This document shows, one piece after another, positions 17,406 to 38,817 of a stretch of 64,000 nucleotides of DNA (within the stretch, counting starts at the first letter, position 1; each line of letters starts with the position of its first letter). The DNA lies in the NCBI GenBank assembly GCA_011800805.1, contig MPNW01000036.1, positions 187,736 through 251,735 of the forward strand, written 5' to 3'. Below the pieces are notes generated by a model. The model ran no database searches, was not told where the DNA came from, and worked only from the letters and a program-made list of their open reading frames with translations. This DNA comes from Hirudo medicinalis (Eukaryota; Annelida; Clitellata; Hirudinida; Hirudinidae). Made by a program: the position numbers and the translations under genes.

Positions 17406-17660
17406 CTGTAATATCTAAATTGTCAGGACTACAAACAGACTGCAATATTGCATGCACGACTTTCTTATTTCAAAATAGCAATAACAAGCCACCAGAACTT
17501 GTTATAACTGCACTTTTATTTTGGTCATGCATGAAAGCCTCTCTAACAGCAGAGTAATAGTAGGTGTATAATCGGTGTGTGCTACACCTTTACGCTCAGT
17601 TTTGGTCTAACTCGTATACAGTTAGTTAATTTGTCGGCGGTTTTTGTCAAATCGTAAAAT

Positions 17661-19399
17661 ATGGTACCTGTACATGGAAAAGAAGAAATGAGTGCCGTCG
17701 ATGAAGAGTTCATGATATGCAAAGTGTGTTTAGAAAACTTCGATTCAGTAAAACGCCAACCAAAGCAACTTCCATGCACTCATATTTACTGCCACCGTTG
17801 TGTCGACAATTTCCTGTTGAAGGGAAAGAGCAAAAGGGTGACATGCCCCATTTGCAACCAGAGTTCAAAATGTTGTGGTTCGTCGGAAATCAAAACCTGC
17901 CAGCATTCGATAAACCTGGTAAATACTTTTAAACATTTGCTGACACGACGCAACTTAAAACCTAAAAGTTGTCAAGATCGTTGCGAAAGCGACATGGACG
18001 CTTTTGGAGTAGAGAAGAGCAAGCGAACAGTTGTGAAATCATCCAATCCTCTGCTACATCCGTCCAAAAAATGGTCGAAAATGACCTGGAGCGATGACGA
18101 AGGCGATGCGGATGACGGCGAATTAGTTGGCGTAAAAAACATGACTCTAAAATCACAGCTTCCTTCGACGAAGTTGATTTAAATCCTCTAATTGATGCTC
18201 CAAAATCTCTGAAAAACCTGTGGAATCAACACTCACCTGAAGTTGTTTCGCCGCCAGAACATGTGGACCTTCACCTGGGTGGTGGGAGTGCCGTTACACG
18301 AAACAATTTCTCAACGTCTCCAAATAATAATTCCACTGTTCAAAGTATAAATGCGCTCGAATTAAGAAATTATCCCTCAATTCAACACCAGTCTGATGCG
18401 AATCAATTTTCTGCTGAAGTTGACGAAAGTGATGATTTAGACTGGAATTACTTTACCCAGAATTTTGAACCAAGTCCGAAATCAACAATGACGTACAGCT
18501 CACACAAAGAATCGAAACAGCAAATTCTCCAAAGTAATGCCAAAGATTTACCAAGGTTCAAAACAGACGACCAAAATGGGACACCTTCAGACGTGTTTAC
18601 TGAGTTAAAATTTACAGCCCCGTCCTTGATAAGATCATCACTGACCGGCGATCTTGTACTCATTGTTGATCAAACTGGCAAAATGGAGAATAAAGTACAA
18701 GTCTTCGAAGCGAATAGTGTTATCAAGCACACTTTTAATGTCAATCTAGAAATTAATGATGTGTGTCTTGTTGAATCGGAAGACAAAGTTGCAGTAGCAG
18801 TGGCATCTAAAGAGGGCATCACCATATTCGAAACTGAAATGGATGGCAAAGGAAAATTGATACCAGTTGGCCCAGCAAATTTTGTCTCTCCTTTCATGAA
18901 AGGCTTCGTAACAGCTCAGGACAATTCTCTGAGTTTCTGTTTGGATTTAAGCTGCAGCCTCGTGCTCCAGTCCATAAGAAGCATTCATTTAGAATCAGCA
19001 TCAACGGACGGAAACATTTTTAGAAGAATCGTTGACATGAACACTTGCCAGAATATGATAGGTCTTCTCACCAGCGATCAGTGCATATTGATAGATCAAC
19101 ATGGCAAAGTGTTGCAATCAGTCAGACTTTTTGAAGCTGAAAGCTCTGGAGCAAAGGCAGCCATGCAACTTTCCTTTACCCCATCTTTCAGGAAACTGGC
19201 TGTTATTCATAAAAGCAAACTACTGGCTGAACTACAAGACATTGGACCCTTAACTTCTTCCAAAATTCCTATCATTCTCCCACTTGGCGAGTCTGGGAAT
19301 CGTTTTGAAGTCCTAGGCGGAACTTTGGTAGGTGAGGACAGACTTCTAGCCATTTTGCAAACCAAGGAAAACTTCAGAATTGCTAAATACAACATTTGA
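17661..19399 (+). CDS. RING-finger E3 ubiquitin ligase-like protein, single exon with apparent frameshift
   Basis: Two overlapping open frames make one gene. The first (17661-18182) encodes a C3HC4 RING with Cys20, Cys23, Cys39, His41, Cys44, Cys47, Cys62 and Cys65, so ubiquitin-ligase activity is likely. The second frame is open from about 18116 to the stop at 19397-19399 and continues without a start Met. It encodes a low-complexity linker and about 260 residues of short beta-strand-like blocks (GDLVLIVDQTGK, DKVAVAVASKEGITIFE, QCILIDQHGKVLQSV) that resemble a beta-propeller, as in TRIM-NHL ligases. One extra base in the A6 run at about 18134-18139 would join the frames as VKKHDSKITASFDEVD. 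A sequencing or assembly indel is the simplest reading; a real mutation is possible. I do not recognise the orthologue. The poly(A) signal AATAAA at about 19475 nearly meets that of the convergent importin gene. Confidence 0.75.
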
Positions 19400-19601: not shown

Positions 19602-21865
19602 TCAGAACTTGAAACCATTTCCAGCAACATTGTTGTTGTTAGAGAAGTTGAATCCTGCTTCTGATGCAGTGTCCTCTTGTGGAGCCTGTAAAACAAAATT
19701 TTCAAATGAAACAGATCCAGTAAATTCTAATTTTTTTTAATAAAATGTATGGACATTAGTCACAATCTGCTCCAAAACTTACAGAGAAATACTTTTCAAT
19801 GAGTCGAAGAGCAGCATTGTAAACGGCCTCGTTGTCGTGGGTCTGAAGTTCCTCGATTTTGTCTAAGCCCCCGCACTCCTCGAGGACCATGCACACACCA
19901 TCTAGGCATCCAAGTTGATCTGCAGCCTGCAAACAAGACAGATTTGAGCACTGTTGTTTTACATATCGAACTGATAATAAAATTAGTACTTACATTGAGA
20001 ACATTGCCAAGAGTTTCAAGGACAATACTTATGAGTCTGACATCCTTGCAAAGGAGGAGGCTGCTGAGGGCCTGAACAACACCCATCTCAACTGTTCTTA
20101 TAATCTGTTGGTCAACACCACCACTGGCAAGGTTATTGATGACCCAAACTGCTTCTTTTTGGCTCTTGAAGTCTCCTTTGTTTATAACGTTTATCACGAA
20201 CGGGATGAGACCACTGTCGATGACTTCCTGATAACATCAAGTTGATATAAAAATTATAATAGCATCAGAGAAGTTTATATTAATAAGTTTATTAAAAAAG
20301 TTGCTTATTTAGAATATTTTTAATGAGCCTTAAAATATCATATTACGTACTTGGATTTGAGCTGCGCTTCCTGCTGTGATGTTGGAGATTATCCAACAAG
20401 ATTCTTTCTGAATTCCTGTCTTGTCATGGCCCAGAAGTTTTACAAATTTGTGGAGAATCTTCATGTCCAACACAGTCTGATATGAAAGAATTTAAATCAC
20501 AAAAAAATTACACAATGCAGAATAATGGCATGTTTATCAAAGCTAAAATTATCAGATGACCCACCTGAGTCTGGGCATCATCCCCTGTAACAATATTTCC
20601 GAGGGCCCTCAGCGAAGGAGTGAGGATTCCAACATCATTGAATTCAAGAAGAGCACTGAGTTTTGGCAAGACTCCCGAGTCGATGACTTCCTGGATGCGA
20701 TCGTTAGCTCCATCACTAATGTAGGAAATAGCCCAGCAAGCATCTGCCACAATTTCTTTATCTTGATGGTGCAACAGGGTTACCAGACATGGTAGGCATT
20801 TCTTCATGGCATCAAATGGGGGAGGTGGGTTCTTATTACGACAGAAGTTGGACAAAGCCCAGGCTACATTTCTCAGCAGTGTGATTCCAATTTTCCCACC
20901 TTCATTGTCTGTCAGAGCCCTATGGACAAGCTTCAACATGCCATCCATGGCATCCAGTTTTAGCACGGCATCCCTCAAATCGGCACCATCGCCTGAGAAA
21001 GTCATGTAGCTATTGCTTAGCAAATCGACCCAGGCATTTGATCCAATAATATCACTCACCAGAAATGTTTCCAAGAGCCCAGACAGCTTGCTCTACGACA
21101 TTGAGGTTCTCACTCTCTAGGAGTGCTACAAAGTTCTTAAGAGCACCAGCCTTCACAACCTCTCTTGTTTGGGTGGATGTCCCTGATGCAATGTTTGTCA
21201 GTGCCCAGGCTGCTTCAAACTGGAGATTAGGCCTATAAACACATTTATGTTACATGATTTGAATTTAGTACAGAAGACAGATGCTTACTTGTCAGTGCAA
21301 AGGAGAAGTTGGGACAAAATAGGAAGAAGGTTAGTTTCAATTATAACATCAATGGGTGGAGATCTTTCTCTTGAAAGCATCTTCCTGATGCTCTGAACAG
21401 CCTGAAAGACTTCCTCATAGTTGTTCAACTGCTTCATTATCCTAGTAATGTCATCCATGGGTAAAATTCGCACTGTGGAAGCCTGCACACACAGAGATTA
21501 AATTACAATACATTTTTCTATTGCTAGAGACAAATAATGATAAATGAATTAATAAAGTAAATGAAGAACAGTCTAATGAGCTTAAATGCAATATATACTC
21601 ACATGAGTGTCCTCTGAATCAAGAACATCGGGTTCCTCTTCCAAATTCCTCCTCTTTGAAATCTGCTCATCCTTCTTGGCTTTGCGAAGTTCGACACTAA
21701 CCTCCGACCTTTGTCGTCTCAGATCCTTAACGAGCACAAAGCATATTAAAATAACTTGAAACATTCAAAGTAATTGCGCGACAAGTGACTCTAGTCAAAA
21801 GCAAGGTAACTCACATTTATATCTTTGCCCTTATTCTTGTAATTTTTCAATCTAGCTTCAGACAT
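19602..21865 (-). CDS. KPNA: Importin alpha (karyopherin alpha), 9 exons
   Basis: This adaptor binds classical nuclear localisation signals and links them to importin beta. Minus-strand exons: 21865-21815, 21725-21603, 21482-21289, 21232-21060, 20992-20565, 20476-20351, 20227-19994, 19926-19783, 19685-19602; 518 residues (human 529-538). The start is [15 protein letters not shown], the importin-beta-binding domain, which continues [18 protein letters not shown] with the basic cluster SKRR. Armadillo repeats follow, with the conserved Trp/Asn ladder for NLS binding: [90 protein letters not shown]. The carboxyl end (EKYFS plus [15 protein letters not shown]) follows the usual [11 protein letters not shown] block. 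It looks closest to the alpha-1 type (KPNA2-like) by its end, but this is only an impression. Intron 4 is only 67 bases. Confidence 0.96.
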
Positions 21866-22289: not shown

Positions 22290-23713
22290 ATGGCTGATTT
22301 CGACAAGAAACCCGTGAAAGGAATTCTGAAAAATACATCGAGCTTTGATAAAGGGAAGTGCGAAGGCATGAGGTTAACTCTTTGCTAAAGTATTGCTTAC
22401 ATACCACCAATCTGTGTAATCCGAAGTAATGTGATACTACAAAAACAACAAGCTAATTTTTAATTACTTTGTAACGTTTCTATTTAAGTCGCAGAGAAAA
22501 AGAAATGAAATGGGATGAGATGAATATCTTGGCCACTTATCATCCAGCAGACAAAGATTATGGACATGACAAAATAAACGAACCGCCAACTCCTTATAAT
22601 AGGTTTGAGGGAGATGGCGACGAAACGCGAAGTGGTGATGAAGGGGAAAGCTGCATTGATCCTGAACTTCTCGCTCAAGGGTAGTTTTGTTTCTAAACTT
22701 TCATATCAATTCTATTAATTCAATTATCCCAGCTAATTATTTTGTCTACTCATTTGCTTCATTTTTGAGAGTGTAATCATGCTGCTTTAAACTTTGCATA
22801 TGTTTTTGTCATTACACACATAGAACCTGACATTTGAATGTTCGCTTTCATTTTATGACTGATCATCTCTATTTTTATCATTTAAAAAATATTGCATTTG
22901 TATTAAGTTCTATCTATCACATTTAGTGATGTGTAAAAGCTTGCTTTATTGACTGATTTTGATTTCTTCACAAATTTATGATAATGTCACGGTAAACAAC
23001 AACATAGATATTGTCATAAGCATTCTTAGAGTTGAGTTAGAACTGCAAACACCATTACATGTGATGGTACTAAAGTAATAGTAAAACATTATTTGATTTC
23101 TTTAAATTTTTAATTATTCCTACTAACGAGGTTTAATAATGATTTCAAGAAATGTTGTTTAGAATATTGTTTACATAAATTAAACCTAATGGCACTACAA
23201 ATGCAGGCTAACTATGAAGACGAAGCCAAAAGTTCTGACGAAGGTTGACACTTACAGCAGTGGAGATGAGGATGAAGAGGATGAAAACCTCACAGAAGAA
23301 GAAAAAGGTAAGAGATTCCACTTGTCAGAAAGTTGTTCTTAAAAGCCACTTTAATTAATTTCAAAGAAATATAAAATTTTAATTATTGATTAATAATTTT
23401 TCAGAGAGAAAAAGGGTGTTCAGACTTCACAGAAAGCAACATTACAATGAGTTTCAAGCTGTTAAATTGGCTCGCCAGCTCCTACAGGAGGAAGAAGATG
23501 ACGAAGATGGTGAGATTTATTAATTATTTTTAATGGCTATTTTTGGTAGGCGGGTGATACTCAGAACTTGATGTATTTACAGCTGATGATGAAGGAATGG
23601 GATGTAGGAATGATTACTCAGAGGCCAGCAGGTCAGTGGAAGTCAACGATTCACTGAAGGAGAGTCCCCTTTCCACTGAGGAGCCATCCCCCATGGACAT
23701 TTCAGACAAATAA
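22290..23713 (+). CDS. PPP1R2: Protein phosphatase 1 inhibitor-2, 5 exons
   Basis: Inhibitor-2 is an intrinsically disordered regulator that binds PP1 and blocks its active site. Exons: 22290-22372, 22495-22680, 23207-23307, 23405-23509, 23583-23713; 201 residues (human 205). All three PP1-contact regions are present: KGILKN (residues 10-15), [20 protein letters not shown] (matching human [16 protein letters not shown]), and the carboxyl helix [18 protein letters not shown] (human RKLHYNEGLNIKLARQL). The GSK3/ERK phosphorylation site is kept as PPTPYNR. Acidic patches lie around [10 protein letters not shown] and EEEDDEDADDE. The exon 2 start could also be 22489, which would add two residues. 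The gene is head to head with importin alpha and tail to tail with the coiled-coil gene at 24148-25446. Confidence 0.93.
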
Positions 23714-25669: not shown

Positions 25670-28600
25670 ATGTCTGAATCCGGATTGTTCGGCGTCCTTT
25701 GTTTCTGGGCAATGTTAAAACTTTCTCAAAGTTTGGCTATTTCATTAAAATACTAAGAAACGTTATCGTGTCAAAGTTCTGAGTTGTTGCAATAACATTG
25801 TAGATGCTTGTCCATCTGAGAGATTTGGCCCACACTGCGAATTCCAATGTCATTGCTTAAGAAAATGTAATAAAGGTGATTGTTCTGATGACCTCTGCAG
25901 TTTTGGTTTTATGGATCCCCCGAAATGTCAAACAGGTAATAGATAATAAGTGATCGATAAATTCTTAATAGATAAATATTTTTTTTTGTGAACTGTTGGT
26001 CGAGATTTTAAGAAGGTTGTGCAGGCTGGCTGAATGGGTTGTGTTCCTGCATACGGCGGTAATGGTAACAGTCGTAATGTCGTGTTCACTGCCACAAGTG
26101 CCCTTGCGCTATATAAATGGTTAACAAAAAGCGCCTCTGACGCTATGCAAATGGCGCTATTTAAATGAACTACATTTACATTTTATATTTGCGTTTTGTT
26201 TCCAGTTATAAGTTAATTTGTCTTAGGTTGTCCAAAGCAAAGGTTTGGTGTTAATTGCATGTTTGATTGTAAGTGTCCGGAGAACGATACCTGTAATAAT
26301 GTAAATGGCTGGTGTTCCTCGAACAAGTGTAAGGATGGCTTTGGTGGAGCTGGATGCCAAAAAAGTGAGTTCTTCGGTATTTACTTAACTTTATAAGTAT
26401 CTAATTAATAGTTTCCAACTAAGTTATTGATTATTCTAACAAGGAGTACCCTTTCTGAGCGATCCGCCGGTAGTTGACATCATTGCAGAAAAATATATGT
26501 TGATTTCCTGGAAACCTTGGTCTCATGGCTTCCAACTCACCAATTCGTCCATCCTGATATATTTAATAGAAGCTCAGAATTATCAAGACATCGACTCGGC
26601 AAGCGAATGGATCACTCTCGCTAAGGTCAGAGATACAGACGAGTCTGGACAAGCGGCTTGGATCATGGAGAAAACGAACAATTTCGACGTAGCGCTAGTG
26701 ACTACTAGTAATGGAGATCAATCTCTTCAGCGGGTTCGAGTTCTTTTCCAGAATCCTGAGCCTGACCAACCATACAAATTCAGGATTGGAATATCTGTAT
26801 TGAAAGACAAAAGACCACCATTCAAGGTTGACCCGAGTCCCGTCACCCCGAAGTGGCACAGCATCCATTGTGGAGGTTTGCGTCTTCAATCTGTTTGTAT
26901 ATTGGTATTACAGAATTTATTGAATAGTATTTATTTATAGTATTTATTGAATCAACCCAGTTACTTAAAGAATAATATCAGTTTGTATAATTCGTGGATT
27001 TACTTTGTGAGATTGATGTGTTGTTCCGAGTTGCTAATTGGTTGAATTACTGATTTGCTGCCCGAAAAGTTGCCATCGATTCTTGTCCACGAGACTTTTT
27101 GATCATCAAATATTAATATGCAAATTTTAAATATTCAATGAACGCTGATCATACATTTTTAGTATGCAAATATATTCCATAATATGTATTAAATTGAAAT
27201 TAGTAAAAGTTTATTTTTTTTAAAGTTATGAAATAACTTAATAATTATGATGATGATGATGATGACGATGACGATGACGATGATGATGATGATAAAGTCT
27301 TTTAATGATCAACACTGCAATTTATTTATTTATTTCTCGTTTTTTTTTCTTCATCAATTTATCTTAACCATTTCCGTGATCGGTGATTTGATATTAAATC
27401 TATTACACCCGAATGTTCAGTTACAAGTTTACCATCCAGCTCCAAGCCAAGTTCCAACGAGAGTGTCAGCCAACATAACCACTTCTGAGGACTTCATGAC
27501 GCTCACCATCGCTTGGGAGGTTCTCTTGATTTGAGATAATTATCATTACCACAGTCATTAGTACATTCTGACTATTTTCTTATCAATTGTTTATTCTGTT
27601 GTCGACTTTGAAGAATAATTCGCTGGAAAGTAATCGTTAGTGAAATGTTGTTATACGTCAGGGTCCTTTGTGCTTTTATTTTCCATTATTCTGCCATCAA
27701 CAAGGTTGAACGTAATCCAAATATTATCAAAATTTCGAACGTTTCGAATTTTCACCTCGCAGCTTTTGGGCCAAAATTCCAGTAAATGTGATGAATTCTG
27801 GGGACATGAGGCGTCCTTGATCCGCCTTGATCTCAATGAGAGCAACATTATTTCATCATTCAACGTCACTTGGCCTCATCTATCTATGCTGGTCTCCAAT
27901 ATCACAGAAATACATTTTGCTGCCTTCAGCTCTTTGTCCTACGCTGTTGCAGTACGAGTTGTAAACAAATGGGGGGTGGTCGGACCTTGGTCTGAGCCAA
28001 GTTTGGCTTTCTTTATTGGTTGGTAACTTTAGCCAAATTTTTGTTACTATTTTGAAATAATAGCGTGTTTTCTTCTTTTGGAAGTCGAATCAACGACTTT
28101 AGGAGAAGTAGGGTCTGATTTAACAATGTCTCTGCAAGGATCTTCCAATTTGACAACATCTCCTCTGCCCCAAAGTCCCTCATCATCTCACTTTGTGGTT
28201 CTTCCGACTTCTCACCTGGTCACTCCTTCGCTCAAAGTCAAAGGTCAATCTCCATCGCCAACGGTCCGAGGTCGGAGTGTGAAGTGGACGCTGCTCGAGA
28301 GGAACGAGACTCATTTGGAGTTGCTACACGAAGGCGGAACGTCTGCTTTCTGTGAGGTAAGTGCCAATGTCTGTTTGTGTGTATGATTGTATGTATGCAT
28401 GTATGTGTGTATGCATGTGTGTATGTATGTATGTATGTATGTATGTATGTATGTATGTATGTATGTATGTATGAATGAATGTATGCCTGTCTGTCTGAAT
28501 GTCCATTTGACAAATATTGAATTCCATGGCTTGCACACAGATAAAACTGTTGAAGCATCTCATTGAGGGCGTCGAGCCCTACGTGGAAGTGTTGAATAAT

Positions 28601-31600
28601 GTCGTCATTTTGAGGAATGTCAAGGGAGGCATAGAATTGTCCTTAGGAGGACTCGAGATCAAGACCTATTACACCGTCGTCGTGACTTGTCCTAGTCTTT
28701 CGATTCACTCGTCCTTGACATTAGCCACTAGTGAGGATTGTTTCGTCATTTATCCCTAATCGACGAATATACAATCAACAATATACAGTGCTAGAAATAT
28801 TATTACGACATACCCAATGTTTTTATACTCTGTCAATTGCACCTATTTATAAGTAAGCTTGAATTGGTGCTTGATTTTTCTGATTCTAAATTTTCCAATC
28901 GTCGAACAAGGTCTTCCACCACCCAGGAAGCCACCTGACCTCAAAGTTCTCAAGGTGACGTCTTCGATTGTGGTCGTGCATTTACCTCGGAAGGAAGGAA
29001 GAAGTAAAGAACAAAAGATGAAGCGGAAGAGGGTTATTCTTTTCTTTAAATTGTTGTTTATTTTCGAAGGTGCAATAATAATAATAATAATAATAATAGA
29101 TTTATAAGGCTCCTCCAAAACAAAAGTGACACAATTGTCCTGATTATTACATACTCTGCAGGTCAATGTGGGGCTGCTATCTTATCATCTTATCATCTCT
29201 TATTATCCTTTATCATTTACCATTTGCATTAATCCTGCTCAATCAGTTCTGATTCGTAATAGGATTACATAGCCATGGGTCTGCAAAAACGGTCGTACCT
29301 GGTCATTGTCGAAAAGCTTGGGGAGATTGGGTGTTGTTCTGTATCGTACCTGATCGAAAGTGGACAGGTGAAGGCAGTGCATGAGCACGAAGAGACTTAT
29401 AGACTCAATGAATTCTATGGGTTTCAGATCACTTGGGATGATCAGAGGAAAAAGAAGCAACACGTCGATTTCGATATGCTCCCAAACTCTGCAACATCGG
29501 GCATGTACCGCAAGAGTTACTATCTCGTTGCCAAGCTGAACTTGCCAAGCAATGTCTCGAAATCAACTGAAATCTTTGAAGAATTCACTGTGGGAGATGG
29601 AGTCACGTACGGGTGAGAAGATTGCCGCTGGAATGCAATGTTTACGCTCGTGCGATGTTTACCTGACGAGGGTGGTACTTAAAAATACGCAGGAAATATA
29701 ATAACCCACCATTGAAAGCCAACCGTTCTTACGTCATCTGGTTCGCCATCGAGGACACCTTGGATGGACTCATCCGTCGGTCATTCTCTCGTTCACCGGT
29801 CGTCACCCTCCTCCCGGAAGAGGGCGCAATCGTAATGGGGCCGGACGCACTGCAAGTGGGTAGTTTCTGCAACAATGAAAATGCTTAAGACTTTTTCATG
29901 AATGTAATGTTTTGGCAAACATGATTAATTTGTACAGCAACTTATCCTCAGAAACTGATGTGCTTCACGTCGTTAAGATTACTCGGTGATTGCTGTAATG
30001 CGGTTGTTATTGTCATTTTAACTGTCATTAAATTCGATTAAAATAGGTCAATCAAATGATCTCATAATTTTTAATAACATGGCGCCCAGTAGACGATGAT
30101 TCATATTCCAACTCGATCATTATTCATTATTTTGTTTTAAGGAAGTTGTTGGAATGTCGCTAATCACAGTTGCCATCTTCTTGACCCTGACCCTGACTAC
30201 CTTCTTTGCCTTGAGGTGGATTCGACAGAAAAGAGATGCGAGACTGTTTAAGAGGTGGTTGGATCGAATATTATGTTTGATTATGGTTGCTTGGATACAA
30301 GGAAAGAAATAAATTGTTTGGATTAAAGATTATGAATTTGGGCAATTTGAGTAATATTAGGTAATGTTGATTCCTCATTTTGCAGGCTTCGTCAGGCAAG
30401 ACTTCAGAGCCTTGCCTACCTCGACAAGGAAGGTTTTCGGTGGAGATGCGACGATGTCTTTACCGAGCTCGTTGAATCTGCACCTTTTTCAGATTCCTTT
30501 TGCTCTTCTCCTGGCAAATCCATTTCTCCGTTCACCTTTCCTGCACCGATTATTTCTTCTACGGTTCTGAACAACGAAGACTTCCTGTCTCCAATTCCAG
30601 TGAAAGACTTGAGGAGTTTCTGTGAAAGACATGTTTCCCTTGGAACGCGTTTACCTGCCAATCCTGTCGGAGAGGATCAAGCGGACGTCGTATCGAGCCT
30701 CATCACGAAAGAGTTTGCTTCCTTCCCGACTGGCTTGACGGATGTTGTGGCTTCTTCATACCGACCTGACATCATAACCTCCATGGATTCCTATCACCTC
30801 AACGTGGTATGAACATGTACGTTGATTGTAGAAATAATAATAATAATAATATCAAGAAGGTTTCGGAGCTTATGTGACTCAGGCTAAGCATGCTATTTGC
30901 AATAGATATTGTTTTGCTTGTCGTGATTTCGCAATTCTTTTCTGTTACAAATATCTTGTAATATATTATTTTTACATATTCAATATCCATTTAACAGGTG
31001 CTTCCTTACGAACGCAACAGGGTGAGATTAAAGGATCGTTTCAAAGAGTCAAACCCTTCACCACTGGAAAAGACTTTGGAAGATGTGGGATGGGAGGATC
31101 ACCTTAATGCCAGCAGGGTGAGAACCCTGGGTAGAGGTTCTTGCATAGTCACCCAAACCCTCACTCCTTCCTCATGTTCTGCTTTGTGGCTCCTAATATG
31201 GCAGGAGGCTATCACCCATATCATTGACCTTGATTCGCTCGACCAATGGGATGCTTCCATTCAGGGTGATTCTTCTTGCCCTTCTCCAGGGTACTGGCCT
31301 CATGTTTTGAAGCGAAGAGAGGTCTTCGGCGATTTGGAGGTTGAGTTGGTTTCCAAGATGGACTTGGCTCACTATGCTGTAAGGGTTTTCTGGGTGAGTG
31401 ATTTTCAATAAGGTGTTTCGCATTTCTTGCTTAACTTATGAAAGTCTTAATAACGTACACAATCGCTTTTGATCGAAAGATCGGAAAAGCAGACAGGGGA
31501 AAATTCGTGCATCAGTGGCACTACCATGCCTGGACTCCTCAGTCCATACCTGTCCATCACATTTCATTCCTCAACTTCATCCGGGCTCTTGGGGAGGATG

Positions 31601-33799
31601 TCCCCCTCGGTCGAGAGTGCAGCATCATCGTTTCGTGCCAAACTCTCCTGCACTGTAACCGTGCTGATGGAAGGAGCGGCATCTTTCTGGCACTGGATGC
31701 CCTTATAGCTCAGGGTCTCATGCTGAACGTGATCGACGTCAAGAGCTGCGTTGCTCTGCTGAGGTGTGCACAATGTCGATAGTTGGAGTAGATGGGCTAA
31801 ATTGATCGAAATAATTTGTTTTTCCAGGTCAGAGCGTCACAACTTGGTGAAGACTCTCCGCCAGTACTGCTTCATTTACGAGTGCCTTGCTGAGGAGTTC
31901 GATCATTCTGGAACCAGGAAGAACATTCTCAGATTCATCACTGGGCTCAGGAGTTCTGAGGATAAACTGAGTATCCCCGCCGAAGTGGTCTATGACCACA
32001 GGCTCATGACCTCCTGCTCCTACAGGCCACTGAAGGCCAGCATGTCAGAAGGATATGCCAGCTGTGTGCCTCCCTGTAAAGGCGGCCCGGAGCAGATGGG
32101 TTTGGTGATGTTGGACAGCTATTGGTTGAGAAAGGCTTTTTTGATCCAGAGGTGAGGCCTCAGTTGATGTGCTATGATTCATCTGTTAACATGATGTTCC
32201 ACCTGTTAAAATTATGAGTGCATCATTTCAGGAGTTCGAGGTGGGTCGATGATGCAGACTTTTGGAAGGCCGTCGTTGATAACGAGGTGGTTGCCATAGT
32301 CTCTCTGACGAAGATAATGGTCGTGGAGAATGCCGATGGAGGGGCTCATGGTGCCCATCAATTATGTCTTTCCACGGGGAGAAGTTGGAGTGCAGGCATC
32401 TTTACTGTAGCCTGCGTCCTTGCCGATAAGTTGGAAGAGTCAGACTGGGCAACATTTCGATTGTCGATAACACATCATTCCGATGTCGAAGATGTCCCTG
32501 CTCCCCAACGGAATGTAGAGGTCATCCAGTTAGACACGTTTGGGAGGAGTTACAAAGACTCTGTTGCTTCCGTTGACACTTTCCTACGGTTCATCCATTT
32601 CTTGAAAAGCAATAACAAGTGGTCGTTAGGGTATCTTAATTCATTAGCTATTTTAGACTGAGTTTGAATGAGCAATTATGCAAGAGCTTTTCATTCAGAT
32701 CCCATCCGACAGTGTTGCTGGGAGGACCCCAAAAAATGCAAAATATAAATGAAATTGGCGGCTCTGTTCCACTGGCTTTTGACAGGGTTGGGGTGTTTTT
32801 GGCGTCTTGGATGTGCATCGAGCAGGCAGTCTCGGACGGAGTTGTGGATGTCTTTGGCACCTGCAGACTGCTCAGATCCTATTTGTCTGCTGCCATCTCT
32901 TCAAAGGCGGGCACTTGTCTCTGAGTTGTCTTGATTTATCGTAAATATAATGTAAATGATTGTACAATACAGATGTAAATGTTTACATTATGGATTGCAA
33001 TAATGGTCGGAAAGAGTATATCAGAGCGTGCTAATTGTTCAAAATGGTGTGACAAACGCAGGAAGAATACCAGCTCACGTGTCTCGTGGTGAGTTCCTAC
33101 ATGCGCACACACTCACAACCCGACAACGACTTCTCTCGTCGTCATCTCCTCACTGGCTTTCATTGGCGAGAAACTCGTCTTGATGTCTCCCAGGAGCAGC
33201 CATCCGTGAACCGACGCAACGTTTTGTTTCTACCGATATCGAGTTCTTCGATGCTTCCTTTCGCTAGGAAGAAGCAGAGTCCATCAACAAGAATAAAGAG
33301 GGATTTCAGTGGTAGTTACCAGAAGTTTCCTTCCCCACGCGCATCGCCCCTCCTGGCAAATAAGGTCTCGACCGAGGAGGCAGATGGGTCACCACTTACA
33401 TCTGAGGTTTGTAATCATTTTTGGGGTCCTACACCCTGTTTATCCTGGGTTCAAAACTTCCTTCAAAATAAACTTCAGTCCTTGGGTCGGAATTTACTTG
33501 GCTCAGCTTGCTTTACTTGGCCAAGAAAAGGCTGAACATAACTAAGTGACTAAGTTTTTGAGTTATTAAGCAATGACTAGATTTAAAATTGATCCTTTCC
33601 TGATTTAATGGCTCACTGTTTCAAAATACCTGCCTTGAAATTGTTTTATAAATTTAATTAATTTATAATTACTGGTTATTAATTATTAATAATTTTATTC
33701 AAGAAACAACCTGCTCCCCAGGGGCGTCGCCCAGGCAGATTTTTCGACTCCCTGAGGCGTGAGGCCCCCCCAACATCTGATGCTGTTGACATCTGCTGA
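25670..33799 (+). CDS. Receptor-type protein tyrosine phosphatase with EGF and FN3 domains, about 20 exons
   Basis: Model: 25670-25730 (signal peptide, uncertain), 25804-25935 and 26227-26364 (two EGF-like units), 26444-26875, 27428-27519, 27763-28018, 28085-28356, 28541-28730, 28911-29003, 29273-29612, 29693-29855, 30142-30254, 30386-30806, 30998-31397, 31493-31763, 31828-32151, 32232-32618, 32699-32906, 33062-33406, 33722-33799; about 1571 residues. The ectodomain has fibronectin III-like units and a LAR-type membrane-proximal domain (FTVGDGVTYG, PPLKANRSYVIWFAI). One TM follows (SLITVAIFLTLTLTTFFAL). D1: LPYERNRVRLKD, CIVTQTLTPS, HYHAWTPQSIP in the WPD-loop place, LHCNRADGRSGIFLALD as the P-loop, then KTLRQYCFIYECL. 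D2: VMLDSYWLRKAFLIQ, DFWKAVV, GGSVPLAFDRVGVFLAS in place of the P-loop, DGVVDVFGTCRLLRS. Both domains lack expected catalytic residues. The phase of exons 14/15 has an alternative (31393 to 31480), and the donor after 32906 is GC. Confidence 0.85.
26018..26121 (+). mobile_element. tRNA-derived SINE-like element, copy 3 (receptor phosphatase intron 2)
   Basis: An A-box-like TGGCTGAATGGG is at about 26027-26038. GGTAATGGTAACAGTCGTAATG and CGTGTTCACTGCC follow, then the shared end GCGCTATATAAATGG. It aligns with the copies at 7950-8102 and, reversed, 17316-17405. Confidence 0.6.
27247..27296 (+). repeat. (GAT/GAC)n microsatellite in receptor phosphatase intron 4
   Basis: Nearly perfect GATGATGATGACGATGACGA triplets within an intron; no coding role is seen. 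Confidence 0.85.
28377..28480 (+). repeat. (ATGT)n tetranucleotide microsatellite in receptor phosphatase intron 7
   Basis: TGTATGTATG repeats begin about 20 bases after the exon 7 donor at 28357 and continue for about 100 bases with scattered changes (GCATG, AATG). The His/Ile/Tyr-rich minus-strand open frames here are only the translated repeat. Confidence 0.9.
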
Positions 33800-36427
33800 A
33801 AGTTTTCGTCGAATAGTTTTCTGTTTTAAATTCATTCATTTTTGTTATAAAATTGTTGAAATGCTCATTTTATCGATATCGATAGCGTAAGTAATATGTT
33901 TCTCAGCAGATGGTCATATTTCTATTATTTGTAGTATAAAATGCTCGTGAAAGATGATTTCAATTAAATGGACCTCCTGACGTCTGTGAGCCTCTGACGT
34001 TTTTATTAAACCTGCCTGTTGCACCGCGTGCTGGTTGGCGTCCCTTGCTTTGTTTTTACTTTTCCTGTTTAACAGTGATGGAGAGACAGAGGTCGGTGAA
34101 GATGCGCTCGGTGAAACAAGATGATGTAAGAGGAACAAGATGAGTGAGTGGGGAACGCAAAAGTTATAAGCAATCGCAATCAAGAGGACCAACCTTTAAG
34201 TTTGGATGGAGCATCCAATAGGAACGTTGCAAGGTCTCGTAGACTGCTCGAGCGACTTGAGGGTGTCCCCCGTCCTTTTGCCAGCCTTTCCATTCGTGGT
34301 GTGGTAGCTTAGTGCTAGGGCCATATTTGCATGGCATCGATTTCGTTCTTACGTTCACTGAGGCAAAAGTAACTGAGCATCTGGCTTGGTCGAGAGATTG
34401 AGTCTAGGTTCTGTCTACACCGTTGCATGTTGGCGTGTCTTACCATCTCGGTTAACCCTACATTCGGCATAAACTTCCATAGTAAGCGATGTCTTTATTT
34501 TGGTGGCGGTACTTGCCTGATCCCATTTAAATAGTTTTATGGCAAGCCATTTCCTATGCGTGAGCGGCTGGGTGAGCAAGTTGATAGTCTGGTGGTAATA
34601 ATGTAATGATTCTGTTCGGAGACGACAGTTGATAATGCAACTGCAATTTCTCTTTTGTAATGGATGCTCGCACCGGATATCGCCATGTTGCTTCTTGACC
34701 CGTTGACCCCGTCTTCAGAGTGCGCAGGCGCATGCTCTCTTAATTACTTTCTTTGTCGAGACATAAATCTTTCTATTGACGTGACGCCTGCCAAATAAAT
34801 CTGTTCTATAGCTGAATTGGCTCGTCTCTCCAAGCCGGAGGCTGACAGTTCGAATCCTGGATGGATACGTTCATTTAAAAGTCCTCTCGATACCTCTCGC
34901 CCGTTATTTCTTATTATGTAGTTGAAGTTTCGGCTATAAGGATATTTTAGACATGTACGTCGTCGTCAGGCATCAACATCACGTGCGAGCGAGCTTCTCC
35001 AAGTCCCGACGTTTCCATGACAACGCTACCGTTGCGTGGCTATCGGGATGCACATTTTTTCTTAAAGCGAGCGTTTTTATTGTCATTGGAGGGAAATGGC
35101 CCAGGGTGGAATTGGCGGGGGTGGGTGGCGAGTGAATGAAATGGTAGCAAGTGAAATAGCAAAGTGGAGTGGGCATGGCGAATGGGGATTTCTCACTGGA
35201 GACAAATAAATCAGTTAAAAAGGATGGGGTTGTTATATGTTACCATATTATAGTTACCCTTCTATATATTATATTAGACCCTTATATTAGAGTTGCCCTT
35301 TTAAAGAGGGGATAGCAGATATATATTTCCCCCTCGACAGCTGTGCATGATTCAGTACCCGCAGATCCGCTCCAAGGTCCGCACGTGCACTTGGTCCTCG
35401 GACGTTGCATCCCCTCATCCCACATAAGCCCCCCTCCACGGCTCATGAGAAGAATCTTTTGCGAGTGTATCCGTTTCGCATGATGATCGATTTGGCATCA
35501 AAATTGCATCTGCCGAGACTGCTGTCGGCTCGTTCCCATGGGAACAGAGCGGTTAGAGAAATGTCGGGTATGAGAAACCTTGCGGAGGACAGACCGAGGA
35601 CGTTTTCTCACAACCCCGGGATGAGACGGTCTCGGTGAAGTACTATTAGGACGTCCCGCTTATCTGCCAAGTATCTGGGACGACTGTTGTGGGCAGGAAA
35701 GCGAGTAATTAGAATGTAAATGATGTTTCAAGGAAGAGAGTGAAATCTTATTACCGGACCATCTGCTCCGGTTATTCTCCTTGTCCCATCGCATCGTTTC
35801 CTTATTCGTGTTTGTCTGCCTTCGTATCGGCGACCGAGGATTTTCGGAGTTTAATAAGTTTTGTACGAAGTTGATTCATTATTTATTTTTGTGGTTCTTT
35901 TGAAGTTTTAATTCCATTACTTATTCATTAAATTCATCGTTATCCATTATTTCGTTGACAAAATAACTAGCTTAAAATGAAATGCTATTTATGAAGAGCG
36001 ATTTATTAATTAATGAAATACAGACAAAATCAAAATCAAAAGCTCATACGAATGCCATGGACAAAAATTAACCAGAAATTCGAATCAAAGAGAATGCATT
36101 TAACTTTGAAAATGTTGGCCTTACTAAGCGATCATCCAGGCGGCCCTCCAATTGCGTCACGAGAGATGCGCATGCGCCAAGGAACGGAACGATACTTATG
36201 GAAAAGCGATGTGCCTGGATCGCCCTACAATCGATCTGGAGGAGTGGAAGTAAGAGTGGAGATTCTTAGATTCACATCATGTTCATTATCTTGAAAGTAG
36301 TGTTTGCACATCATTTTATTTTGTCGTGTTAACATGCTTTATTACGTACGTATGCGTTATTTTGATTTCTTAAGCATGTATTGATTGATTTCCATTTACC
36401 GTTTGTGAGTTACGATTCCAAAATTCC
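33800..36427. other. Intergenic region between receptor phosphatase and LHFPL gene
   Basis: I see no convincing exon in this 2.6 kb. Short open frames at 34164-34358, 34953-35135, 35405-35638 and 36013-36294 show no recognisable motif. One tRNA-like sequence is annotated separately. Several GC-rich blocks (about 35000-35120 and 35340-35640) contrast with the AT-rich surroundings and could be regulatory or the remains of an older gene. Confidence 0.4.
34800..34870 (+). mobile_element. tRNA-like sequence, probable tRNA pseudogene or SINE head
   Basis: TAGCTGAATTGG resembles an A box, and AGTTCGAATCC about 35 bases later is a good B box. A TCTCC/GGAGG stem lies between them. The anticodon-loop candidate CAAGCCG lacks the invariant T before the anticodon, and the T-arm does not pair well. 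A functional tRNA is therefore unlikely. Confidence 0.4.
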
Positions 36428-38817
36428 ATGTTTTATCCCAAGACGCGGTTAACTTTCTTCTCGCTCGCAATTCACTTTGCTCGAGCTGACGTCATCATTA
36501 ACGTCATCATGCTCGCACCAATTCCGGACCACCCGCCCCCGAAGTATCAACCCCATCCGGAAACGCCCCCGGCCCTACCAGCCAGGCCGAAACGTCTTGA
36601 ACTGGAATCGAGAAGCACCTTTTCCAGGTCAACCAATCACCATCCTTCCCAAAAGACCCATCGTTCGGAGCAGAACTCCGGAGAAGCTTCGACTCCTTCC
36701 TTGGTTCACACCCCGAGGGTTCAAAGGTATTTTTCGAGCCCCCTCAGTCCGCACCTCCTCTTGCCAGACTTTACCCCACCGGGTAGACAACAAAAAATCC
36801 AAAGGAAAAGACACGATCAATTTTCGCCAGTTCCTCACATGACATCGGACCCTTCCAGTTATTCTGTTGCAACGACGATGACCGTATCGTACAAGAGATC
36901 GGAGACTGATTCGAGTTTCACTGACTCTCTGTTGGAAAGCCAGCATCAAGGACTTTCTCAGTTGGCTGACTTAAGGCTTGGCTCCGTTCCCATCAGAGAA
37001 ATTCAGTCTCCTCCGCTGCCAAAGCGAAAGAACATTCACAGGACAGTGGAGATTTCACATCAGGGAGGTTCGTCTGAATGCAGTTCAAACCTGACCTCGC
37101 GCTTTGAGCGACGCAAACAGATTGCGAAATACGTCAGGGTTCTCTGGCTCGGTCTGAGTGTTACCATCACCTCGGTGTCTATATTTAGTTACATCCAGCC
37201 CCATTGGTTCGTGAGCCAAACAACAGCCACAAGTCTCGGCGTGTTTGGCTATTGCGAACCAAATCGCCTCAAATCAGCAAGAAACGGAGAAGGATTCGGA
37301 AGCAGATGGAAACATTACGTCGAACCTGATGATGCCATGAACGGCGATTGGCGCTTTCACAGAAGCAATTCAGGCCACAATGTGCCTAGGGTGTGCGCCC
37401 TTTACGGTGGCCGAGCGGGTCTATCAAACCTGCCATCTAATATCTGGCAAGTCGGGTGTGTCATGTTTGGGGGCGGATGCGCGCTGCTCCTCGTGTCCAG
37501 CGTTTGTGCTCTTCTGTGCTTTATGCTTACCTTGGTGGAAGCCCTTAGGCAAAGGATTTCTGTTGGGCGTCTTTGCACTCACACCGCCTACGTTCAAGTG
37601 ATGTCAGGTTGGATAACTGGTTTTCTTACAATTACAATTACAACAGTCATTAATCAACATTAACGACATCTAAAATGTTACGAAATGTTATGAAATCTTA
37701 ACCCAGTTATGAAATTAACAACGGTAATAGTAATGATCGACATCGTTTTACAAACATCTCAAATAATGATAAAATGATATCAACATACAATAACAATAAA
37801 CATCAAGAAATTTTTTTTTATTAAATTTTGCAGATATTTCACTAAAAATCAGAATTTTCTAGAACTCGCTCCTAAAGAGCATACATTACTACCTCCCAAT
37901 AGGGATGTTTCCGAAGGGTAACCGATTATTCCCCGTGGGGTCGTTGCGAACCGGCCATTTTAATGGATCCTTGAAATCTGTTCTTGGACGGACATGCGCA
38001 GAGCAATCCTATTCGGGAATGTACATTTTTTTTTGTATTCTCCAGTCGTTGTTATTGGAATAAGATGGTAGCTTGTACCATTGTTCTAGTTGTAATGATG
38101 ACGACCTCGACGACGGTTATGATAGTAGTAGGCCGCGATACATCATCTGTCCAATTCGTGGCACGTAATGAAGCCATTCTTTTAGCACAAAGAAAACATC
38201 TGGCAGTCAAGAATCAAGCTTTGGAAAGCACAAATAATCATAAATATTTATAATGCTATACGTAATACATTTTTATAAACACGATAATTTTACTTCATTT
38301 ATATGAATCTGTTTTAAAGTATTTCAACAACAATTATTAAGTCACATCCTATTTGTGTTGAATTGTGGTTGTTTTATATTCAAGCANACGTAATACATTT
38401 TTATAAACACGATAATTTTACTTCATTTATATGAATCTGTTTTAAAGTATTTCAACAACAATTATTAAGTCACATCCTATTTGTGTTGAATTGTGGTTGT
38501 TTTATATTCAAGCAAAACTTTAATTAAAAATAAATTTATGAAAATTATCTAATTAAATAATGCATCACTGATGCCCTCTATTCAGGTTTAATGTTTATCT
38601 TTCGTTAGCTTTTCTTCTCATGACCGGAGTGGCCATATTCCCGTTTGCCCTCGACTCCAAGATAGCCAATCATTACTGCCTCGGCTCAAATCCTGCCAAA
38701 GCCTCCTATGGGTGTCAGTTAGGCTGGTCTTATGTACTCGCAGTGACTGCCTCTGCTCTGTCGGTCTTCTGTCCGCTTCTCGCCTATTACAGTAAAGACA
38801 TTTATACCAACAAATAA
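36428..38817 (+). CDS. LHFPL: LHFPL-type tetraspan membrane protein with long proline-rich amino end, 2 exons
   Basis: LHFPL proteins are four-pass proteins in the claudin-like superfamily; some escort channels or receptors. Exons 36428-37607 and 38609-38817 join in phase 1. The more likely start is the ATG at 36509 (MLAPIPDHPPPKYQ), giving 435 residues. The first ATG of the frame would give 462. The membrane core starts near RKQIAKYVRVLWLGLSV; loop 1 has SYIQPHWF and GVFGYCE (human SFIQPYWI, GLFHYC) and the GGRAGLSNLPSNIWQVGCV block (human GSFTDFSTLPSGAFKAASF). TM2-TM4 follow, with GCQLGWSYVLAVTASAL in exon 2 (human GACSVRWAYILAIIGIL). The leader of about 210 residues is far longer than the roughly 20 usual for the family. 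It holds a PPxY motif (PPKY) and a PxxPxR-type SH3 motif (PARPKR). Exon 2 is conventional. A duplicated 127-base block lies in the intron. Confidence 0.8.
36487..36494. promoter_or_regulatory. CRE-like palindrome TGACGTCA upstream of LHFPL start
   Basis: A perfect TGACGTCA lies 15 bases before the preferred ATG, with a second AACGTCATC just after it. If translation starts at 36509 these lie in the 5' UTR or core promoter. With the upstream start they would be coding. Binding is inferred from motif match only. Confidence 0.3.
38260..38514. repeat. Perfect 127-base tandem duplication around a single N
   Basis: Bases 38260-38386 and 38388-38514 are identical by eye, with one N at 38387. This pattern is typical of a contig join or gap closure where overlapping ends were not collapsed. 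It lies in the LHFPL intron and does not affect coding. Confidence 0.85.

Follow-up and report, generated by a model that had tools for sequence, protein, structure and literature searches.

A Hirudo medicinalis receptor tyrosine phosphatase gene in which both phosphatase domains are probable pseudophosphatases

Receptor protein tyrosine phosphatases (RPTPs) with two cytoplasmic phosphatase domains, D1 and D2, are usually described as carrying one live and one dead domain. PTPRU, a human receptor phosphatase of subfamily R2B, was called unique among RPTPs for having two pseudophosphatase domains (PMC7320164). In PTPRU D1 the WPD loop reads WPE, the KNRY loop reads GSRQ and a threonine (Thr1089) lies four residues after the catalytic cysteine (Cys+4); the P-loop is turned and the cysteine is blocked through Thr1089, substrates of its relatives are still bound, and no activity was reported on phosphotyrosine, phosphoserine, phosphothreonine or two phosphoinositides (PMC7320164). 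The dead D2 of PTPRK recruits Afadin without catalysis (PMC9640194). Among R3 receptors, altered WPD loops are found in Ciona and the acorn worm and, with the aspartate retained, in the sea urchin (PMC5336234), and PTPRQ, which carries WPE, acts on phosphoinositides (PMC5336234, PMC7320164). Here, we describe an 18-exon receptor phosphatase gene on the plus strand of a 64,000-nucleotide stretch of leech DNA (Hirudo medicinalis, contig MPNW01000036.1, positions 187,736 to 251,735; hereafter the window, whose own numbering we use), extending from 25804 to about 33406. Dead receptor phosphatases are an already known kind and this gene is a new, strongly altered case: it is probably an intact animal receptor phosphatase gene, with D1 and D2 both predicted to be pseudophosphatases.

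The WPD loop of D1 reads WTPQSIP where the family has WPDHGVP, which places a proline in the column of the general acid. The motif HAWTPQ, which the preliminary description of this DNA had placed at 31528-31545, is present but was misplaced by three bases and lies at 31525-31542. The KNRY equivalent is SYHL (30789-30800), as had been proposed, or DSYH if one counts from the exon junction. The P-loop reads HCNRADGRSG (31651-31680, as first reported) against HCSAGVGRTG in the family, and the Q loop, found in the form VKTLRQY as previously read, has KTLRQ against QTxDQ, lysine replacing the first glutamine. What D1 retains is a cysteine, the Gly-Arg-Ser-Gly with which the loop ends and the second glutamine of the Q loop. 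D2 contains no Cys-x5-Arg and none of the WPD, KNRY, P-loop and Q-loop motifs; the stretch GGSVPLAFDRVGV, earlier noted for its lack of the signature, is indeed found at 32757-32795. Local profile alignments placed the KNRY loop of D1 further on, at KDRF, a placement that we rejected since (i) LPYERNRVRL matches the family sequence LPYDHSRVxL and (ii) an exon junction adjoins the SYHL loop; many, but not all, phosphatase domains of the same genome are likewise broken by an exon junction beside the KNRY loop. A gene model restoring either the WPD aspartate or an HCSAGxGR loop was looked for and none was found: both loops lie in one uninterrupted exon (31480-31763), and reading that exon ruled out a hidden intron that would give back WPD or HCSAG.

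The resemblance of the altered D1 and D2 to phosphatase domains is no accident. The spliced cytoplasmic part matches Pfam Y_phosphatase in two stretches with 146.8 bits (expect value, E, 1e-42; cut-off 20.9 bits), and a profile built from 24 domains of the same genome, the window excluded, gives 109.7 bits for D1 and 24.0 bits, in two stretches, for D2. The fold signature of D1 therefore remains, at 110 bits on a profile free of the window, and the D2 match is weak, in a domain that has no catalytic residues. Searched against the PDB, the cytoplasmic part finds its best matches in PTPRS (E 1.4e-37) and LAR (8.1e-34), followed by PTPRA, CD45, PTPRE and then PTPRU (1.8e-22). Of these, the R2A receptors LAR and PTPRS are the nearest by score, but the D1 of PTPRS has canonical WPD and P-loop columns, unlike the D1 described here.

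Because the acid aspartate and the KNRY pocket are missing from D1, its P-loop is altered and a lysine takes the place of the first Q-loop glutamine, the domain should not hydrolyse phosphotyrosine at normal rates, and judging from its sequence D1 is very probably dead toward this substrate. The protein is presumably made and folds. The gene resembles PTPRU in its tandem pseudophosphatase domains, in the alteration of the WPD loop, the phosphotyrosine loop and Cys+4, and in the presence of an Fn3_PTPRU domain. It differs in degree: PTPRU D1 has WPE and a single unusual P-loop threonine, where the leech D1 has a proline, HCNRADGRSG and a Q-loop lysine; moreover, the leech D2 lacks even the cysteine, and the leech ectodomain yielded no MAM domain and has EGF-like exons at its front. 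The leech D2 may also be compared with that of PTPRK, a partner-binding pseudophosphatase domain of the kind proposed here but one that sits beside an active D1, and the D1 with R3 receptors (PTPRQ and those of Ciona and the acorn worm), in which the WPD aspartate has been lost naturally (PMC5336234); these are, however, single-domain receptors, and the accessible text of their study describes no KNRY loss (PMC5336234). The most likely form is a scaffold or decoy resembling PTPRU: the ectodomain would sense a neighbour or a ligand at the cell surface, and the dead tandem domains would bind proteins that active phosphatases of that cell have as substrates or partners, keeping these away from the phosphatases or in complex with them. 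A decoy mechanism of the PTPRU type in particular can be put forward only tentatively. The receptor may bind phosphotyrosine or serve as a scaffold; with the phosphotyrosine-recognition loop gone, binding by way of the old pocket is the less likely form. The preliminary description had set the gene against receptors in which D2 alone is degenerate; to that contrast PTPRU, both of whose domains are pseudophosphatases (PMC7320164), has to be added. A second such receptor, altered much further than PTPRU, would demonstrate that a whole cytoplasmic part can persist as a binding module, and would provide a natural experiment on the surfaces that stay important once selection no longer acts on catalysis.

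Where exactly the catalytic cysteine should be sought in D1 is less straightforward than the Cys-x5-Arg signature suggests. HCNRADGR is there, as had been said, but its register is uncertain, IIVSC fitting nearly as well: the cysteine of IIVSC (31636-31638) precedes that of LLHC by six residues. Positions 31621-31680 hold two similar stretches in tandem, IIVSC and TLLHC, each ending in a cysteine, ahead of GRSG. The pair may represent either a longer loop ahead of the strand or an expanded P-loop. If the active-site loop is expanded, the IIVSC cysteine occupies the catalytic position, HCNRADGR is displaced downstream by six residues and a Cys-x5-Arg loop does not form. The spacing favours this possibility, since the distance from the WPD-loop tryptophan to the cysteine is 36 residues for IIVSC and 42 for LLHC, and 42 or more is found in two of 37 other rows from the same genome, a set in which one fragment fills two rows. 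Likewise, a single-sequence AlphaFold model of 31480-31761 places a strand at ECSIIV that ends two residues before the IIVSC cysteine, with a predicted local distance difference test score (pLDDT) of about 55; the confidence of this model is low, however (mean pLDDT 46.4, too weak for a structure search), and the profile prefers LLHC, which in trimmed versions of the domain scores 115.2 against 112.8 bits and is thus ahead by 2.4. We consider LLHC the more likely position of the catalytic cysteine and the expanded loop a possible but doubtful arrangement, which would in any case be a variant of an inactive D1 and not a competitor to inactivity. Whichever register holds, the acid and the phosphotyrosine pocket are gone. 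In the LLHC register the Cys+4 residue is an aspartate, which could cap the same helix as Thr1089 of PTPRU.

The view that the gene is intact, with two pseudophosphatase domains, has to be weighed against the possibility that it is simply decaying, that is, a phosphatase recently freed from selection whose divergence is erosion. The hand-assembled model comprises 1,527 codons (4,581 coding bases) with no stop and every junction in phase, the two alternative frames of these exons containing 76 and 72 stops; exons of 396, 421 and 432 bases each lie inside a single open frame, and the GC content is 52% at third codon positions and 32% in introns. When neutral substitution was simulated (400 runs), the frame stayed open in 3.5% of runs at 0.02 substitutions per site, in 0.5% at 0.03 and in none at 0.05. 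The best matches elsewhere in the genome, among those listed, are only 26 to 41% identical, yet no stop has appeared, and although the sites were chosen by hand, all 17 introns are in phase and 16 of them are GT-AG, which argues against erosion. On the other side, the losses are spread across D1, where 23 of 39 other conserved columns are kept, D2 is nearly unrecognisable at 24 bits, one splice donor is GC and the genome holds no close relative. Decay is, in our view, quite unlikely.

Several observations weigh against an intact gene specialised for non-catalytic work, and they concern both the openness test and the comparison with relatives. Splice sites were picked so as to keep the frame open, which biases that test in favour of the model and may conceal a frameshift, and one of the donors is GC rather than GT. 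The genome yielded no close paralog, the ten matches listed beyond the window itself falling in the 26 to 41% range, and no ortholog was found at E up to 0.001 in a set of 5.8 billion proteins (for the cytoplasmic part the 7,998 candidates with the most words in common were scored, with a length filter that excludes full-length receptors, and for the near-full protein and D1 words 1,531 candidates). The distribution of the losses points the same way: out of 57 columns conserved in canonical domains, 18 in the active site and 39 elsewhere, D1 retains 7/18 and 23/39, respectively (p = 0.13). The wear on D1 extends over the whole domain, with no significant excess in the active site. The 20 canonical domains of the same genome that define these columns keep 15 to 18 of the 18 (15/15 where columns are missing) and at least 30 of the others. 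Finally, the D1 does not group with the D1 domains of the other Fn3_PTPRU genes of the genome in either of two trees (see below).

The family to which these comparisons refer is large, with at least 163 exon-level Y_phosphatase matches in the 133 Mb genome, and it offers many candidates for the active phosphatases with which the receptor would compete or form a complex. Our survey covers part of it: 31 loci were compared, one of which (L047) is part of the window, leaving 30 others, and 35 domains were rebuilt; five domains of 90 to 189 columns (L019 D2, L021, L031, L032 and L034 D1) were left out and fragments below 90 columns are unlisted. The WPD aspartate is present in 22 of the 26 other first or single domains, some of which come from genes that do not look like receptors; three have glutamate (L026, L041 and L045) and in one, L018, the loop is deleted. 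Variants of the motif in these domains include WPE, WAE, WTE, WSD, WKD, WLD and WAD. Two relatives have lost mainly active-site columns: L026 D1 (WTE) keeps 13/18 of them and 39/39 of the others (p = 0.002) and L018 D1 keeps 10/18 and 34/39 (p = 0.012). The latter gene, on contig C555 (D1 at about 2067-2860 of the locus), is like ours a tandem receptor phosphatase with an Fn3_PTPRU domain (41.5 bits) and a lost D1 WPD loop (deleted, WNSSN), but unlike ours its D1 keeps KNRF and HCSTGISRTG, and the two are only about 23% identical over D1. Its Q-loop glutamine is an arginine, its D2 lacks the P-loop arginine and its pattern of loss is cleaner than that of the window gene.

It is also conceivable that D1 is still an enzyme, though an unusual one, working slowly or on another substrate such as a phosphoinositide and using a different acid. 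The retained cysteine, Gly-Arg-Ser-Gly and second Q-loop glutamine would fit such a case, as would the precedent of PTPRQ, which works on phosphoinositides with WPE (PMC5336234, PMC7320164). However, the acid column of the leech D1 holds proline and not glutamate, the KNRY pocket is gone, the register of the cysteine is itself uncertain, and PTPRU, whose changes are milder, was reported inactive on all the phosphorylated residues and on the two phosphoinositides assayed (PMC7320164); we regard residual catalysis of this kind as very unlikely. A gene-model or assembly error concealing a normal D1 is highly improbable: the draft assembly contains pieces elsewhere that look, by eye, bacterial or duplicated around gaps, but the WPD and P-loop columns share one open exon with family sequence on either side, and nothing in the genome matches the window better than the window itself. 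As for those pieces, one locus (L048, C459) carries what look by eye like bacterial cytochrome oxidase genes, open under the bacterial code and from a contaminant or a symbiont, and another (L049, C456) a COX1 piece with TGA read as tryptophan and a gap with a duplicated stretch, either a nuclear copy or an assembly fault.

Coming back to the double-pseudophosphatase receptor as the best reading of the gene, since catalytic residues are missing in both domains, one part of the preliminary description that is not supported is its LAR-like label. The membrane-proximal domain, which contains FTVGDGVTYG (29273-29612 and 29693-29855), matches PF23144, Fn3_PTPRU, at 26.9 bits over a cut-off of 24.7, and also aligns weakly with PTPRM (E 0.059); Fn3_PTPRU serves as a mark of subfamily R2B on the strength of the family name and this PTPRM alignment. 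R2B receptors (PTPRK, PTPRM, PTPRT and PTPRU) have one MAM, one Ig and four FN3 domains (PMC10815196), whereas the leech gene has EGF-like exons in front instead of the MAM/Ig layout. No MAM, Ig or FN3 domain was found in Pfam at E up to 5, in a search whose filters drop most matches above 0.1 and on a protein whose 5' end is incomplete. In a tree of D1 domains built on all columns the window D1 falls outside the other D1 domains, and without the active-site columns it joins PTPRS-like D1 domains with a support of 25, a grouping that is gone with all columns. That grouping was the only one obtained, the trees contain no named R2B domain, and D1 is left without a place in any subfamily. Judged by its sequence, the gene would be R2B-like in the membrane-proximal domain only.

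A genome search with Fn3_PTPRU found at least two places, C555 and C68, the intron-split copy in the window not being among the matches listed. On C68 (L019) D1 is canonical and on C555 (L018) the WPD loop is deleted, so that the D1 WPD aspartate is lost in two of the three known Fn3_PTPRU loci of the genome (window and C555). That receptors of the Fn3_PTPRU class became double pseudophosphatases on more than one occasion, as PTPRU in vertebrates and again here, is an unlikely proposition. If they did, loss of D1 catalysis would be a recurrent route for this class, with the Cys+4 aspartate or an expanded P-loop doing the blocking performed by Thr1089.

The architecture of the receptor can be followed exon by exon along the plus strand. 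The first coding exon, with the signal peptide, lies 5' of 25804 and is not settled, so the 5' end is incomplete. Two cysteine-rich, EGF-like exons (25804-25935 and 26227-26364), read in phase, give a single Pfam EGF match under the cut-off (11.4 of 27 bits). Six exons that we take to be FN3-like by eye follow in the in-phase splice model (26444-26875, 27440-27519, 27763-28018, 28085-28356, 28541-28730 and 28911-29003); no Pfam FN3 match was obtained in 26444..29003, and one stretch aligns with PTPRM at -1.2 bits. An acceptor at 27421 and a donor at 28022 in this part of the ectodomain were ruled out by phase. After the membrane-proximal domain comes a single transmembrane exon, VVGMSLITVAIFLTLTLTTFFALRWIRQKR (30142-30254), read directly from the sequence, and then the juxtamembrane part with the start of D1, which ends in the SYHL loop (30386-30806). 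D1 continues with an exon containing LPYERNRVRL, HLNAS, VTQ, YWP and YAVRVF (30998-31393; Pfam Y_phosphatase), with the exon 31480-31763, which carries the WPD equivalent AWTPQSIP and the P-loop equivalent LLHCNRADGRSG, and with the end of the domain, including the Q loop, in an exon that also holds the start of D2 (31828-32151). The D2 core (32232-32618) has an unrecognisable WPD equivalent (TFGRSYKDSV), and the next exon (32699-32906) has GGSVPLAFDRVGV at the place of the P-loop, followed by GVVDVFGTCRLLRS.

The preliminary description gave 32906 as its end coordinate, but this position is the edge of a GC donor and D2 goes on at 33062. The intron 32907-33061, the one GC-AG intron of the model, has the donor AAG|GCGGGC, and the unspliced frame stops six codons on, at 32924; several other D2 domains of the same genome also break at this place. 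The exon 33062-33406, in phase and with its splice inferred, would encode the last D2 helix (EEYQLTCLVVSSYM), of the same residue count as that of PTPRS D2 (LRTQRPAMVQTEDEYQF), and the cytoplasmic tail; without a splice at 33406 the frame runs open to a stop at 33533-33535. The neighbouring genes in the window encode importin alpha, protein phosphatase inhibitor 2, an LHFPL-type protein and a RING-finger protein, and lie at 19799-21092 on the minus strand and at 22505-23508, 36389-37660 and 17658-18179 on the plus strand.

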